Assembly (NCBI GenBank): GCA_001797675.1
Contig: MGQB01000017.1
Span: 1 to 64,000 of the forward strand
Source of the DNA: Deltaproteobacteria bacterium RBG_13_43_22
GTDB lineage: Bacteria; Desulfobacterota; RBG-13-43-22
Direction: 5' to 3'
Length of the DNA: 64,000 bases
Numbering within the stretch: position 1 is the stretch's first letter; every line of letters starts with the position of its first letter. Shown piece after piece: positions 4,775 to 59,823 of this stretch. The position numbers were made by a program, and so were the translations under genes. Below the pieces are notes generated by a model that was not told the origin of the DNA, did no database searches, and saw only the letters and a list, made by a program, of their open reading frames with translations.

Positions 4775-5452
4775 ATGAGAACCTGTCGATTATGTCACAA
4801 TCCGGCGCATCTTGTTTTTGAAGAGGTCCGCCCCTTTTTTGCCTGCAATGTTTGTGGGTTGATTTTTTCCGATTGCTTTATTTCGGCTGAAGCAATTGAG
4901 AAACATTATAAGGATCAGCATAACAATGTATTTAATTGGAAGAAGGAAGCGGGATTTTTTATTGAGTGGCTAAAAAATTTGGAATGGTCCTTACCGTTAT
5001 CATCGTTATCTTTTTTAGACTACGGCTCCGGCGGCGGGTTTTTAACTGAAGAATTAAGAAGAATGGGGTATGCGGTGGATTGTTATGAGCCCATGCTTCA
5101 TGGAGAATTCAACCCAAATAAATATTCGAAAGCCTATGACGTTATTATTATGAATGAAGTGGTCGAACACTTGGAAGATATCAACAAAACCCTCGATATT
5201 ATTTGTAGCCTTCTGGCGGACAACGGTGTTGTTATTATCAAAACCCTTTTAACCGATCGGATCATCAATGATCCGGAAAATTTCAAGGAGTCGTTTACCC
5301 GCTGGTGGTATAAAGATGATCCTACCCATATCTCTTTTTTTAATTTTATGACCATCGAGTACCTCTGCCACGATCGGGGCAGGAATCTTATGGTCCGGGC
5401 GATTTCTTCCACAGATAATTGTGTTGTGCTACAAAAAATGGAAGGATCTTGA
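4775..5452 (+). CDS. Class I SAM-dependent methyltransferase with N-terminal zinc-ribbon-like motif
   Basis: This 225-residue protein starts with a CRLC...CNVC four-cysteine motif (residues 4-30). A Rossmann-type methyltransferase follows, with motif I LDYGSGGGFLTEEL near residue 80, then IIMNEVVEHLED near 125. The pattern of an N-terminal CxxC pair before a Methyltransf_23 domain is frequent in proteins that methylate sugars or lipids in surface-glycan clusters, but the substrate cannot be read here. The gene is AT-richer than its neighbours and sits beside the selC islet. Its stop codon is 18 bases before the tRNA-Sec fragment at 5470. Confidence 0.8.
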   Translation: MRTCRLCHNPAHLVFEEVRPFFACNVCGLIFSDCFISAEAIEKHYKDQHNNVFNWKKEAGFFIEWLKNLEWSLPLSSLSFLDYGSGGGFLTEELRRMGYAVDCYEPMLHGEFNPNKYSKAYDVIIMNEVVEHLEDINKTLDIICSLLADNGVVIIKTLLTDRIINDPENFKESFTRWWYKDDPTHISFFNFMTIEYLCHDRGRNLMVRAISSTDNCVVLQKMEGS

Positions 5453-5469
5453 TCGAGATCAAAATAAGG

Positions 5470-5528
5470 ATGGCAGAAGTGCATGGGAATCAAACCCAAC
5501 TGACGCCCTCTTCAGACGGCACACCGGA
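5470..5528 (-). repeat. Degenerate copy of the 3' part of the tRNA-Sec gene (att-like site)
   Basis: These 59 bases match 7229-7287 in the same orientation, with four mismatches. The matched part of the tRNA runs from the 3' end including CCA, through the acceptor and T arms and the long variable arm, to the 3' side of the anticodon stem, and stops at the anticodon loop. This is how integrative elements leave an att duplication at a tRNA gene. The mismatches show that the copy is old or non-functional. The hipBA genes lie exactly between the copy and the intact tRNA. Confidence 0.85.
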
Positions 5529-5652
5529 GCGGATTGCAATATTTCCAGATAAATTGATATGTTATTCCTATCGATCAAATTTTTTTGAAAAATCCCCCCT
5601 CTTTGGGTTCCTTTACCTTATAAAATTACAGATGGGACAGAAAAATATCACG

Positions 5653-5722
5653 ATAAATGCATTTTTTATAATGCAAAATATTATTGACAAGCATAAATGC
5701 ATTATATATAATTCATTTATGC
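5653..5722 (+). promoter_or_regulatory. hipBA promoter with two operator-like repeats
   Basis: A full-consensus sigma70-type promoter is visible: TTGACA at 5684-5689, 17 bases, TATAAT at 5707-5712. It lies in a 32-base near-perfect palindrome (5691-5722, 15 of 16 pairs) with arms GCATAAATG and CATTTATGC that also covers the hipB start codon. The 11-mer ATAAATGCATT of the palindrome recurs exactly 40 bases upstream (5653-5663), within a second TGCATT-N6-AATGCA inverted repeat. The layout fits HipB autorepression at two sites on the same helix face. The expected transcript start falls at or within one or two bases of the ATG, so the mRNA is probably leaderless. Confidence 0.8.
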
Positions 5723-5964
5723 TTTTCTATATCGGTAAAGAAATTCGACAAGCACGAAAAAATCGCAAGGTCTCCCAGACTAAGCTGGCGAAAGCCCTGG
5801 GCATGAGCCGTACCACCATCGGGCAGATCGAAAACGGTTCTGTACAGGAGATTGGTGTGCGAAAACTGATCCGGGTGCTCGAATTCCTGGGGCTGGAACT
5901 GCGTGTCCGGCCTGCAGGCAGGCCTCCGACGATGGAGGAACTTCGTGAAGAGGGGGCCCTTTAA
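5719..5964 (+). CDS. hipB: HipB-like antitoxin, XRE-family helix-turn-helix
   Basis: An 81-residue protein with an XRE/Cro-type helix-turn-helix (about residues 5-60: IGKEIRQARKNRKVSQTKLA, then SRTTIGQIENG) and a short polar tail. In the HipBA family this protein binds the toxin kinase and represses the operon. The frame is open upstream to 5419, but ATG 5719 fits the domain start and sits at the end of the promoter palindrome. There is no ribosome-binding site before it, consistent with leaderless translation. Its stop codon overlaps the hipA start as TAATG. Confidence 0.88.
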   Translation: MLFYIGKEIRQARKNRKVSQTKLAKALGMSRTTIGQIENGSVQEIGVRKLIRVLEFLGLELRVRPAGRPPTMEELREEGAL

Positions 5965-7160
5965 TGTCGGATATAACATCACTTGCTGTATGGGGCGCAG
6001 ACAAACGGTCCGGCCTTCTTGCCCGTGAACTGCGCCAGGAATATGTGTTCGCCTATTCTCCGGATGCCGACACCGTTGCCCAGGTATCCCTGACCATGCC
6101 GGTGCGCCTGCAGAGTTGGGTGAGCCGCGAACTGCACCCCATATTCCAGATGAACCTGCCGGAGGGTGCACTTCTGGAGGCCATCCGCCGGGCCGTTGCC
6201 AAGGTGATCGGGGAAGATGACCTGTCTATTCTCCGGGTTACCGGGGGAAATCAGGTAGGGAAAAACCGGTTCGCACTCCCCGGCGAGGGGTCGCCGCATA
6301 TTGAGGAATCGCCGGAATCTCTGGATGAATTGCTCACCTATTCAAACACCAGGGAGCTTTTTCATGAACTGGTTGACAGATATGCCCTCCATTCCGGGAT
6401 TTCGGGAGTCCAGCCGAAAGTCATGCTGGATGCCACGGAACGTGGCACGTTAGCGTCGTCAGGCTACATCGTCAAGTCCTGGGGCACAGATTATCCATAC
6501 CTGGCCGCCAACGAGTATTTCTGTATGACAGCGGCAAAACGGGCCGGTCTGCCGACGCCGGAATTCTTCCTCTCGGATAATGGTGGCCTCTTCATTATGC
6601 GTCGCTTCGACGTCACTCCCGACGGGGCCGCCATCGGCTTCGAGGATATGTGCAGCCTCCAGGCCCTAGGGACCGCGCAGAAATACTCAAGCAGCTATGA
6701 ACGTGTAGCGAAGAGCATCAGGGACTTTGTATCCGGTGACCGCCTGATGGCGGCCAGGGAGCAGTTATTTGCAACGCTGGTGTTGTCGGTCATGCTGCGA
6801 AACGGCGACGCCCACTTGAAAAACTTCGGTGTGCTCTACGATTCACCCCTGGGCGCTGTTACCCTCGCACCGGTGTATGACGTGGTGACCACGACGGCCT
6901 ATATCAGAAAAGACGTGCCGGCGCTCTCCCTTTCGGGAACAAAGAAGTGGTGGCCGCGCAAAGTACTGGAGCGCTTTGCCGTGGCTTATCTTTTCCTAAC
7001 GGGGGGAACGGTTTCCGCCACTTTCAGCCGCATGGCCGAAGCCGTAACGGAAACGCGGGGAATGATCCCCGGCTACATAGCCGAACATCCGGAATTCCGC
7101 GAAATCGGTGAACGAATGATGGCGGAGTGGGACGAAGGAGTCAATGGACTGGGTGGCTGA
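5964..7160 (+). CDS. hipA: HipA-like serine/threonine kinase toxin
   Basis: This 398-residue HipA-family kinase has an N-terminal couple_hipA region (about 10-105) and a C-terminal HipA kinase core. Visible motifs are GISGVQPKVML (P-loop-like, about 150), the catalytic NGDAHLKNF near 290 (HipA pattern N-G-D-x-H-x-K-N) and the metal-binding APVYD near 312. In E. coli, HipA phosphorylates glutamyl-tRNA synthetase and causes growth arrest and persistence; the target here is unknown. It is translationally coupled to hipB by a one-base overlap. No inactivating change is seen. Base composition is GC-richer than the flanking methyltransferase gene, and the pair sits at a tRNA integration site, so transfer is likely. 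Confidence 0.92.
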   Translation: MSDITSLAVWGADKRSGLLARELRQEYVFAYSPDADTVAQVSLTMPVRLQSWVSRELHPIFQMNLPEGALLEAIRRAVAKVIGEDDLSILRVTGGNQVGKNRFALPGEGSPHIEESPESLDELLTYSNTRELFHELVDRYALHSGISGVQPKVMLDATERGTLASSGYIVKSWGTDYPYLAANEYFCMTAAKRAGLPTPEFFLSDNGGLFIMRRFDVTPDGAAIGFEDMCSLQALGTAQKYSSSYERVAKSIRDFVSGDRLMAAREQLFATLVLSVMLRNGDAHLKNFGVLYDSPLGAVTLAPVYDVVTTTAYIRKDVPALSLSGTKKWWPRKVLERFAVAYLFLTGGTVSATFSRMAEAVTETRGMIPGYIAEHPEFREIGERMMAEWDEGVNGLGG

Positions 7161-7229: not shown

Positions 7230-7327
7230 TGGCGGAAGTGCATGGGAATCGAACCCACCTGCCGCCCTCTTCAGACGGCACACCGGATTTGAAGTCCGGG
7301 AGCCCCACCAGTGAGCTTTCCACTTCC
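7230..7327 (-). tRNA. selC: tRNA-Sec (anticodon TCA)
   Basis: The minus strand folds as a selenocysteine tRNA of 98 bases. It has an acceptor stem GGAAGTG/CACTTCC, an anticodon stem CCGGA/TCCGG around the loop CTTCAAA (anticodon TCA), a long variable arm (GTGCCGTCTGAAGAGGGCGGC) and a T arm GTGGG/CCCAT with TTCGATT, and CCA is encoded. The eighth acceptor pair appears mismatched. The gene reads UGA as selenocysteine, so some reading frames in this genome should contain in-frame TGA codons. Its 3' end faces the hipBA islet. Confidence 0.96.
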
Positions 7328-8417: not shown

Positions 8418-10145
8418 ATGAAAGTCCGTCTGGCAAAAAAGGCAGGGTTTTGTATGGGAGTCCGCCGGGCCATGGAACTGGCCCTGGAGGCCAATTACCA
8501 CTATCCCGATCCTATTTACACCTTTGGACCCTTGATCCATAACCCCCAGGTTTTATCGATGCTCGAACAAAAAGGGATCCATATCCTGGACCCCAATCAG
8601 GATCAACAAACCGGTACGGTCGTTATCAGGGCTCACGGCATCCCCCCTCAGGACCACGAACGATTGAGAAAGAACGGCTGTACTATAGTGGACGCCACTT
8701 GTCCAAGGGTGATTAAGGTCCAGGCCATTATCAAAAAATATGCTCAGGAAGGATACACCTCGATCATTGTCGGAGATCGGGATCATCCGGAAGTCATCGG
8801 ACTGCTGGGCTATTCTCAAAACCAGGGGATTGTCCTGACCCATCCCGATCAGGTCGAAGATCTGCCGGAGTTGAACAAGGTGATTGTGGTGGCCCAAACG
8901 ACTCAGGATGAATCCCTCTTTCAGAGGGCCGTTAAAAAATTAAGAAAGCGGTTTCCCGATAGTCTTATTTTCAATACGATTTGTAATGCCACCCATGAAC
9001 GTCAGGAAGAGGTGCACAACCTGGCCCGGCAGGTGGATGGGCTGGTTATCGTAGGGGGTTATAACAGCGGGAATACCCGACGACTGGTGGGAATCACCGA
9101 ATCCGTAGGTACCCCCTGTTTCCATGTCGAAACAGAAGATCAATTAGATAAGCAGGAAATCCGACGATTCAAGACCATCGGGGTTACCGCTGGGGCTTCA
9201 ACCCCCAATTGGATGATACGAAAGGTGGTCCAGGAACTGGAAGGGATCAAGGGTCAGGGAGAATATTGGTGGAGTGCAATTCTTTTTCGTTGTGTCCGTT
9301 TCCTTTTAAAAAGTAATCTAATGATAGCCTTGGGGGCCGGGTGTTTGACCCTGGCGGCCGCCCGGTTACGACAAACCCCTTTAAACGGGATTTATTTTGC
9401 CGTAACCTTCTTCCATATTTATGCCATGCACATTTTGAATCATCTCCTGGATCGGGGGGCTGCAGAATACAACGACCCGGATCGCTCTCAATTTTATCGG
9501 CGATATCGACCGGCCTTCTTCATTTCAGGGACAGGAGCCGCCTTATTTTCCCTGGCCCTGGCCTTGACCCTGGGCTGGGCACCGTTCCTTTTCTTGATCG
9601 CCATGAGTACCCTGGGCATCCTATACAGCTTTCAGATCGTACCGGCTGTTTGGCAGCGGTTTACGAAAATGAAAAAGATTAAAGACATCCCGGCCTCCAA
9701 GACCCTTTCGGTGGCCCTGGGTTGGGGCGGTGTAACCACTTTGATTCCGGCCATGGCGGAACATCAGCCTTTCAGTTTTTCTCTGATTATTATCTTTTTG
9801 ATCATTTGTGCTTTTGTCTATATTCGCTCCGGCCTTTTTGATGTCTTGGATATACAGGGAGACCTGATCGTAGGCAAGGAAACCTTGCCGATTATTATTG
9901 GAGAAGAAAAAACCATCCGTCTCCTGAAAGGGTTAAGCCTGGCGACGATGATCAGTTTATCGGCAGGATCCCTTTGGGGTCTTCTGCCTCTTTGGAGTCT
10001 GTGGCTGCTGATCAGCCTTCTGTTTCAGTTTGGTTTTTTGATCATTTACGAAAAAAATCGGGCTTTGCCAGGAAGCGTTTTTTTCGAGGCAATGGTGGAA
10101 TCCGGTTTTATCCTGGCCGGATTGACAGCTCTGTTAATACCTTAG
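8418..10145 (+). CDS. ispH: Fusion of IspH (HMBPP reductase) with a UbiA-type prenyltransferase
   Basis: This 575-residue protein is about twice the length of IspH. Residues 1-280 are a complete IspH: KAGFCMGVRRA, DATCPRV and FNTICNATHERQ supply the three iron-sulfur cysteines, and HPEV, AQTTQ and GGYNSGNTRRL are also present. IspH makes IPP and DMAPP in the last step of the MEP pathway. Residues 290-575 form about eight membrane helices with the two aspartate-rich motifs of UbiA prenyltransferases, NHLLDRGAAEYND and FDVLDIQGD. No stop or frameshift separates the halves. The fusion would tether a [4Fe-4S] cytosolic reductase to the membrane and link isoprenoid supply to prenyl transfer; the acceptor is unknown. 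Confidence 0.9.
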   Translation: MKVRLAKKAGFCMGVRRAMELALEANYHYPDPIYTFGPLIHNPQVLSMLEQKGIHILDPNQDQQTGTVVIRAHGIPPQDHERLRKNGCTIVDATCPRVIKVQAIIKKYAQEGYTSIIVGDRDHPEVIGLLGYSQNQGIVLTHPDQVEDLPELNKVIVVAQTTQDESLFQRAVKKLRKRFPDSLIFNTICNATHERQEEVHNLARQVDGLVIVGGYNSGNTRRLVGITESVGTPCFHVETEDQLDKQEIRRFKTIGVTAGASTPNWMIRKVVQELEGIKGQGEYWWSAILFRCVRFLLKSNLMIALGAGCLTLAAARLRQTPLNGIYFAVTFFHIYAMHILNHLLDRGAAEYNDPDRSQFYRRYRPAFFISGTGAALFSLALALTLGWAPFLFLIAMSTLGILYSFQIVPAVWQRFTKMKKIKDIPASKTLSVALGWGGVTTLIPAMAEHQPFSFSLIIIFLIICAFVYIRSGLFDVLDIQGDLIVGKETLPIIIGEEKTIRLLKGLSLATMISLSAGSLWGLLPLWSLWLLISLLFQFGFLIIYEKNRALPGSVFFEAMVESGFILAGLTALLIP

Positions 10146-57234: not shown

Positions 57235-57335
57235 GATGCAGGATGCAAGAGGCCGGATGCAGGATACAGGAAGAGCGATGGATGGAGGTTTTGTTTTAGC
57301 CTGGATCTCTCATCGTGCATCCTGATTCAAGGTTT
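57235..57335. repeat. Intergenic word-repeat block with inverted arms
   Basis: GGATGCAGGATGCAAG and GGATGCAGGATACAGG words (57234-57270) face CTCATCGTGCATCCTGATTC (57309-57328), their approximate inverse. It lies between gpmI and the M48 peptidase gene and shares the GGATGCAGGAT word with the 23.05 kb block. Confidence 0.5.
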
Positions 57336-57347
57336 ATAAGGAATTGG

Positions 57348-58781
57348 ATGCGGAAAATTTTTCTTAAAATATTTTTTGGATTTATCGGGTTCCTCCTGTT
57401 TTTTCTTCCCAATCCCTGGATGCTTTTCAAGGCAGGGGATGTTTTTGCCCTGACCATCGGGGAGGAACGAACATTGGGGGAAGAGGTAGTCCAAGAGGTG
57501 GAAAGAAAATTTTCCATGATCCGGGATCCCCTGATTCTGGAATATGTTAATACCCTTGGGCAGGAGATTCTCAAACAAGCCGGACCTCAGCCTTACCCTT
57601 TTCGTTTTTACCTTTTTAAAGATCCCCAATTGAATGCCTTTTCTGTTCCCGGAGGGCATATCTTTGTCTCGACCGGTCTTTTGGAAATCATGGACTCGGA
57701 GGGTGAACTGGCCGGCTTACTCGGGCACGAAATCGCCCATGTCACCCGCCACCACATTTCCAACCAGATAGAAAAGCAAAAAAAGATCGGTCTGGCAACG
57801 ATGGCCGCAGCCTTGCTCGGTGTTTTTGCCGGGGACCCCAGAATAGCCGGTGCCGTGATTACCGGTTCTATGGCCACCGCACAGACCTTGTTTCTAAAAT
57901 ACAGCCGAGAAGACGAAGGGGAGGCGGATAATTATGGATTTAAATATATGTCCAAGGCGGGGTTCGATCCCAAGACAATGATCGATTTACTCGACAAGCT
58001 TCGACGCTGGGGATCTTTTGGTTCGGAAGGGATCCCGGCCTATATGCAGACCCATCCGCTGACCGGAGACCGCATGTCCCATATCGAAAATTTATTGCAC
58101 CAGTATGCGGATCAGGGTCACTGGGGGCGCAAGAGTTCCGATGAATTCCGCCGCATCCTGACCATCATCCTGACCAAATATGGGGACTTACAAAGGGCCC
58201 AAAATCATTTTCAGTCCTGGTCCAAGGACGCTCAATCTTTATTTTGGGTCCATTATGGTCAGGGCTGGATTGATATCCGGGAAGGGAGATTTGATGGAGC
58301 CGCCGGTCAATTCGAAAAGGCATTAACCATAAGGCCACAGGACACTTTTGTTTTAAGAGACCTGGGGCAGGTCTTGTTGTTGAAAGGGGATTTGGAACAG
58401 GCTGTTCAAAAACTGAGTCAGGCCTCCGTTCTTGATCCCAAAGACGGGACCACTGCCTTTTTCCTGGCCCGGGCTTATCAGGAAAAGGGGGAAAACCAGT
58501 TGGCCCTGGAAAACTTTCAAAGGGCCATGAATCTCGGTATGGAAGGTGAAGATCTTTATCACTATTTGGGGATTACCTACGGAAACTTGAACGATCTCGG
58601 ACCGGCCCATTATTATTTCGGTAAAATGTTCAAAATAAAGGGAGACCGGGGGAAAGCCATGTTTCATTTCCAAACCGCCTTGAGATATGTTGAAAAAGAT
58701 CCACGGCAGAAAGAACGGATTGAAAAAGAAATCAAAAACCTTGATCCGGGAAAAACAAGGGAAAAGAAACCCGATCATTGA
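57348..58781 (+). CDS. M48 family metallopeptidase with TPR repeats (BepA-like)
   Basis: A 477-residue periplasmic protein. It has a signal segment (1-30), an M48 domain with zinc-binding GHEIAHVTRHH near residue 130 and the downstream EDEGEADNYGFKYM glutamate, and a C-terminal half of about four to five TPR repeats (about 300-460). This architecture matches BepA/YfgC, which assembles or degrades outer-membrane proteins such as LptD. ATG 57348 after ATAAGGAATT is preferred over a GTG at 57315 in the repeat block. Confidence 0.93.
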   Translation: MRKIFLKIFFGFIGFLLFFLPNPWMLFKAGDVFALTIGEERTLGEEVVQEVERKFSMIRDPLILEYVNTLGQEILKQAGPQPYPFRFYLFKDPQLNAFSVPGGHIFVSTGLLEIMDSEGELAGLLGHEIAHVTRHHISNQIEKQKKIGLATMAAALLGVFAGDPRIAGAVITGSMATAQTLFLKYSREDEGEADNYGFKYMSKAGFDPKTMIDLLDKLRRWGSFGSEGIPAYMQTHPLTGDRMSHIENLLHQYADQGHWGRKSSDEFRRILTIILTKYGDLQRAQNHFQSWSKDAQSLFWVHYGQGWIDIREGRFDGAAGQFEKALTIRPQDTFVLRDLGQVLLLKGDLEQAVQKLSQASVLDPKDGTTAFFLARAYQEKGENQLALENFQRAMNLGMEGEDLYHYLGITYGNLNDLGPAHYYFGKMFKIKGDRGKAMFHFQTALRYVEKDPRQKERIEKEIKNLDPGKTREKKPDH

Positions 58782-58800: not shown

Positions 58801-59823
58801 ATGAGAATAAAGTGGTTGTTTTTTATGTTATTCTGGTTGTTATTTCATAATGACCCAGCCGTTGCTTCAGACCCTGCTCGGCCTCAGGAAAGGGACCCTA
58901 TGAAGATCTCTGCCCGAACCATTGTTAAAACCTTAGGTGAACTGCAATCTTTTGGGAATCGGACCACTTGGGAAAAGCAGGATCAGGTGGCTGACTATCT
59001 TTACGGACAGCTTAAACAATACCAGGAGTTGGAAGTAAATTATCATTTTTATCAGTCAGGGGGAAAAACATGGAAAAACGTGGTGGCCCGCCTTCCGGGA
59101 AAAACCGATCCCCAAACCGCTTATATCTTCTGTGCCCATTACGATTCACACCCTTCTGGCTGGGAATCCCAGCGGTCGGCTCCCGGGGCCGACGATAATG
59201 GAACCGGGGTGGCCGTTTTACTGGAAGGGGCTCGACTCTTATCCGAAGCCCCCGGCAAGGCCACAATCGAATGGGTCTTTTTTTCCAATGAAGAACAGGG
59301 ACACAAAGGGAGCCAAGCCTATGTGCAGGAACTCAAGGCCCAGGGCCGCTCCCTTCATGGAGTCGTCAATGTCGATACCATCGGATATACGCAGCCTTCC
59401 TTGGTGGCTTGGTGGGGGGAGAACCAAGAGAAAAATCTCTTCCGGAAAGGGATTAATTTGGCCAAACAGATATTGAAAAGGCCGGTTTATTTTTTTCAAA
59501 CCGGATTTAAAAACCCTAATGAAATTTTGCTGGTCGGTGGGCGTCCGGTCAATGGTTCGTTCGTTGATAAAATATATTCCCGGTTAAAGGGGGCGGATAT
59601 TGGAGTGAAAAAAAATATCGGCCCCCAATGTGGTTGAGGGGATGAATTGTCCTTCTGGGAGAAGGGCTATCAGGCGGTGTTCATCTCTTCTTTATTCAAA
59701 AACCCCCACATGCACAGCGCGAAGGATACCCTGGATAAAATTAATGCCCAGTATCTTACCAGGGCCGCCCGGGCTATGATTGGACTGATGCGGGATCTGG
59801 CCAAAGAAGGAGGGGCTTCTTAA
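58801..59823 (+). CDS. M28-family aminopeptidase interrupted by in-frame TGA; candidate selenoprotein
   Basis: Exported (signal 1-23) zinc aminopeptidase-like protein. Metal ligands appear in order: FCAHYDS histidine, PGADDNGTG aspartate, FFSNEEQGHKG glutamates, VVNVDTIGY aspartate. The frame meets TGA at 59635-59637 after GPQCG, then continues for 61 codons: GDELSFWEKGYQAVFIS, NPHMHSAKDTLDKI (the last metal-ligand histidine), to TAA 59823. Without reading through, the enzyme would lack that ligand. Read through, it has 340 residues, normal for the family. The product would contain Cys-Gly-Sec just before the region that holds a Cys-Cys pair in Vibrio aminopeptidase. Alternatives are a TGG-to-TGA nonsense mutation or a sequence error. 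Confidence 0.7.
59646..59670 (+). promoter_or_regulatory. SECIS-like hairpin downstream of the in-frame TGA
   Basis: ATTGTCCTTCT (59646-59656) and AGAAGGGCTAT (59660-59670) pair in ten of eleven positions (one T-T mismatch, one G-T wobble) around a GGG loop. The loop starts 19 bases after the TGA. Bacterial SECIS elements have a short stem with a guanine early in a 3-14 base loop, roughly 16-37 bases after UGA, so position and shape fit. Caution: the stem lies in codons for a conserved FWEKG stretch and could arise by chance. Confidence 0.45.

Follow-up and report, generated by a model that had tools for sequence, protein, structure and literature searches.

An M28 aminopeptidase gene interrupted by a single TGA

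Near the end of the window, by which we mean the whole stretch of 64,000 nucleotides analyzed here, an open reading frame on the plus strand (58801..59823) runs from an ATG at 58801 to a TAA at 59821-59823 and encodes an M28 aminopeptidase of 340 residues, provided that one in-frame TGA is translated as selenocysteine (Sec279). This TGA (59635..59637, plus strand) is codon 279 and the only one in the frame, and the translation bears out the initial annotation of this DNA in finding 61 open codons beyond it, with the segments FWEKGY and NPHMHSAKDT. The assignment as a zinc aminopeptidase likewise held, with Pfam PF04389 (M28) matching the protein at E=3.1e-31 (109 bits versus a gathering score of 21.3); the domain also exceeds the gathering score in three relatives (G001, G178 and G351) that share the TGA. 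The five predicted zinc ligands and the catalytic Glu/general base (H113, D132, E164, E165, D192, H305) are invariant among these four proteins. The last predicted ligand, His305 (59713..59715, plus strand), is invariant in 28 M28 proteins and is encoded 3′ of the TGA; without read-through there would be no active enzyme, as had been argued from the outset.

Modeled with AlphaFold2, the read-through protein reaches a mean pLDDT of 88, with high confidence after the TGA as well, and among solved structures the model best matches the Aeromonas/Vibrio aminopeptidase, Legionella LapA and the Aspergillus leucine aminopeptidase. LapA, an M28 aminopeptidase, is also the best curated family match (NCBIfam NF045908), but the window protein scores only 69.6 bits where the cut-off is 600. 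Aminopeptidase activity is inferred from family, fold and ligands, without data from purified protein. The N-terminus carries a signal-like hydrophobic segment and the G351 member has a lipobox-like IGAC at its start; going by these features, both read by eye, the protein is probably exported.

The gene is the last in a cluster with the order proB-proA-nadD-rsfS-gpmI-M48-M28, which is the same in the window and in G001. Directly upstream of it lies a gene for an M48 metallopeptidase with TPR (57315..58781, plus strand; Pfam M48), which ends at a normal TGA stop (58779-58781). A scan of the window for other single-gene TGA read-through candidates returned none of comparable kind. Elsewhere in the window, a single reading frame at 8418-10145 combines LytB (IspH) and UbiA prenyltransferase domains in an apparent fusion.

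Conservation of the TGA in a distinct M28 subfamily

Close homologues had been proposed as the deciding comparison, Cys or TGA in the column supporting Sec and Trp a nonsense mutation. A search of 99 related genomes recovered an orthologue from the same genus (G001, 65% identity) with TGA at the same codon, and a profile search for distant members in 395 genomes of the phylum recovered two more from other families (G178 and G351), at about 30–32% identity and with TGA at the same column. The subfamily as found therefore has four members from three families, and all four carry the TGA. None of the three closest homologues of the window gene has Trp (TGG) at the codon, the clade yielded no TGG variant, and Trp, Leu and Phe appear only in the clade of ordinary M28 proteins; in 30 ordinary M28 genes the column holds Leu 11 times, Phe 11 times, Trp seven times and Arg once. 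The comparison thus came out on the side of Sec.

The segments around the TGA (QCGUGDELSFW, QCGUGDEMSFW, DCGUGDEGSFW and ACPUGDEASFW) share the motif C-[GP]-U-G-D-E-x-S-F-W. Its cysteine, Cys277 (59629..59631, plus strand), forms a conserved C-x-U motif with Sec279; it is invariant in the four members and absent from this column in ordinary M28 proteins (0 of 30 genes). We also searched with a degenerate DNA pattern, which permits Sec or Cys codons at the column and for which 0 matches are expected in the window. Across 394 genomes of the phylum it matched these subfamily genes only. A match in G417 from the class searches was rejected as spurious, with a stop inside the motif. No Cys form at the Sec column was found within the clade in about 450 genomes; scans of genome contigs gave no close member, only a distant M28 protein of Ignavibacteriae, while viral contigs had no motif match and plasmids had ordinary M28 genes only.

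In the tree the four Sec members form one clade with support of 100/100, apart from 24 ordinary M28 proteins. Between the window gene and its G001 orthologue, dN/dS is 0.18 before the TGA and 0.16 after it, practically equal on either side, and purifying selection acts on the codons past the TGA as well. Judged from the sequences compared, the conservation of the TGA in three further genomes, down to 30–32% protein identity, is more than chance. It should be kept in mind that the subfamily has only four members, none of them Cys-containing in the same clade.

The selenocysteine machinery

A tRNA-Sec in the window, which the initial annotation had reported, was recovered with ARAGORN at 7230..7327 on the minus strand (anticodon UCA). 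Adjoining it, at 5419-7160, a HipA-like kinase gene follows straight after an HTH gene, likely a HipBA-type toxin-antitoxin pair. Of the three genes that had been recommended for checking, two were found in the window's genome alongside the tRNA: selA (622 bits) and a Sec-type selD with TGA at the canonical site. The latter (G000:C30:3228-4139) is itself a selenoprotein gene, the TGA falling at the canonical AAG-U-ASK site. Three queries for the third, selB, gave no hit in the window's own assembly, which is 85% complete.

The SelB C-terminal domain scores above the cut-off in all three of the other carriers, and selB also occurs in two more genomes of the family. Its neighbors in G001 and G002 are a gene for a Lon-like protease on one side and one for a GreA-like protein on the other (products named by eye), and the GreA-side region of the G001 locus has no DNA match in the window's assembly. 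Failure to find either selB or the genes next to it in G001 is consistent with an assembly gap, without being proof of one. Separately, two contigs of G351 each have a SelB-wing match (79 and 47 bits), and G002 contains another SelB-like sequence, split over a pair of frames (34% and 25% identity), which suggests that some of these bacteria possess a second, divergent SelB.

A candidate SECIS hairpin

A hairpin of ten pairs out of eleven had been placed 19 bases after the TGA and offered as a SECIS element. The distance is right for the apical loop (59657-59659), which begins 19 nt past the TGA; the contiguous stem starts at 11 nt and comprises 8 contiguous base pairs, GTCCTTCT-GGG-AGAAGGGC, so that the candidate bacterial SECIS hairpin spans 59649..59667 (plus strand), with the arms GTCCTTCT and AGAAGGGC closing a GGG loop. 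As had been hoped for in relatives, G001, G178 and G351 carry the hairpin together with the TGA: in four of four members the loop begins exactly 19 nt after the TGA and the stem core CCTTCT/AGAAGG is identical. The loop is GGG in the window and G001 and GGTC in G178 and G351. This difference of one base shifts the 3′ arm AGAAGG between two reading frames, in which it encodes Glu-Lys-Gly or Ser-Glu-Gly (EKG versus SEG), and the use of the same arm in both argues that the RNA arm itself is kept. In codons 280-289 the window and G001 are identical at 8 of 8 same-residue positions with synonyms, against about 57% elsewhere.

Bacterial SECIS elements have been described as having a loop of 3–9 nt, a stem of 4–16 bp, a G in the first two loop positions, a spacing of 16–37 nt and a minimum free energy of at most -7.5 kcal/mol (PMC13188914). 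All four hairpins meet the published geometry, without SelB-binding data. Elements of this type in bacteria tend to be species-specific. With an isolated stem energy of -8.9, those of the window and G001 meet every published criterion, while the isolated stems of G178 (-7.4 kcal/mol) and G351 (-5.5 kcal/mol) fall short of the energy limit; folds over 46 nt reach -17.4 and -11.6 kcal/mol, respectively. The controls were less favorable. The z-score of the window's local fold is -0.6 over 46 nt and -2.8 over 56 nt, weak values, and given its composition the fold shows no unusual stability. Synonymous recoding gave a stem at least as long in 5–18% of cases per gene, and in 9 of the 30 ordinary M28 genes a stem with at least 6 bp occurs at a spacing of 18–20, only 2 of them reaching -5.5 kcal/mol. 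A search of Rfam gave no significant match at the hairpin. The hairpin is weaker evidence than first supposed, chance hairpins at this place being common in ordinary M28 genes; after these controls we no longer treat it as main evidence, and by itself it is modest evidence for Sec.

How the TGA is probably decoded

We suggest, with a probability of roughly 0.93 and in the absence of protein data, that the gene encodes a selenoprotein, an exported co-catalytic-zinc aminopeptidase in which UGA 279 would be decoded as Sec by SelB and tRNA-Sec, aided by the SECIS hairpin just downstream. This reading is supported by a monophyletic subfamily that has kept both the TGA and the C-x-U motif, by purifying selection past the TGA and by the Sec machinery that the genomes encode. 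The draft state of the genome and the Trp at this column in 7 of 30 ordinary M28 genes could instead invite the explanation of a TGG-to-TGA nonsense mutation or a sequencing error, the gene being a pseudogene or an assembly artefact. A TGA shared by four genomes of three families down to 30% identity, the dN/dS of 0.16 after it and the retention of the zinc ligand H305 in all four leave this barely credible, and the conserved TGA effectively excludes mutation, error and pseudogene alike.

A different possibility is that the UGA is translated without SelB, either by a near-cognate tRNA (Trp) or under a reassigned code, for which one could cite the Trp of some M28 proteins and the failure to find selB in the window's own assembly. 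The other three carriers do have selB, and the TGA is fixed, with no TGG variant found in the clade, as is the Cys two residues before it. A reassigned code is ruled out by the adjacent M48 gene, which ends in TGA, and beyond the present case a recoded TGA was seen only at the canonical Sec of SelD. Decoding of this kind is thus very unlikely, and insertion of Sec remains the reading that we prefer.

Possible roles of Sec279

The closest guide to what the residue may do is the aminopeptidase of Vibrio (Aeromonas) proteolytica (M28; 1amp, 2anp, 3b3v), which resembles the window protein in fold (E=1e-20) and in its zinc-ligand set. The initial annotation had placed the Sec close to a cysteine of this enzyme, and profile alignment agrees, although the match is weak locally (8 bits): Cys227, numbered from its position just before S228A, the mutation in 3b3v, falls at the Sec279 column and Cys223 aligns with Cys277. 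The proteins differ in that the Vibrio enzyme has Cys-x3-Cys rather than Cys-x-Sec and SDH rather than GDE, at about 20% identity overall. The Vibrio pair presumably forms a disulfide near the S1 pocket, for which no support was found in the open-licence literature.

If Sec279 and Cys277 do occupy the sites of Cys227 and Cys223, they would be likely to form a selenenylsulfide on a loop that flanks the substrate pocket and runs on to the conserved Asp281. Such a bond, inferred like its position, would either lock this loop or serve as a reversible redox switch for the peptidase in its extracytoplasmic location; any structural or redox role of Sec279 is likewise inferred. That the inserted Sec is purely structural, a counterpart of the presumed Vibrio disulfide and neither switch nor catalytic residue, is a variant of the selenoprotein reading, not exclusive of it. 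The aligned Vibrio pair, presumably a structural disulfide near the substrate pocket, and the ordinary M28 fold would both fit; set against this, most M28 proteins lack such a pair, and Sec, being costly, is rarely retained where a bond is structural alone. We consider this variant possible, at a little below even odds.

A probable selenoprotein family absent from the lists checked

The initial annotation knew of no described M28 selenoprotein, and the open-licence literature gave no reason to revise this. M28 is absent from the 87 prokaryotic families in Table 1 of PMC9312934 and from the nine families added by deep-Sep (PMC12013277), and peptidases go unmentioned in a 2026 review (PMC13188914). 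No NCBIfam selenoprotein family matches, and no paper was found that brings together selenoprotein, M28 and SECIS, within open-licence literature only, so that an earlier description elsewhere is possible. This M28 subfamily appears to be a selenoprotein family missing from the published lists that could be checked. The Cys-x-Sec motif itself has precedents in a UshA-like protein, ferredoxin-thioredoxin reductase and thioredoxin-like Sec.1 (PMC9312934, Table 1), but their folds are unrelated to M28 and no metallopeptidase is among them. A Sec-containing protease has also been predicted from Global Ocean Sampling data; in contrast to the present case, it is a trypsin-like serine protease without zinc, unrelated to M28.

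Genes of this kind will be annotated as truncated M28 peptidases without a zinc ligand, and methods that depend on close Cys homologues can miss them. We tentatively propose, at somewhat less than an even chance, that in the new family, an exported zinc aminopeptidase, a Cys-x-Sec pair adjacent to the active site serves as a redox switch and would tie peptide breakdown outside the cytoplasm to redox state; as far as could be checked, no Sec-controlled metallopeptidase has been described. Among prokaryotic selenoproteins, thiol-based oxidoreductases form the majority. A selenocysteine that is fixed next to the catalytic center of a zinc peptidase, a hydrolytic enzyme, would be unexpected, and poses a directly testable question as to the role of selenium there.
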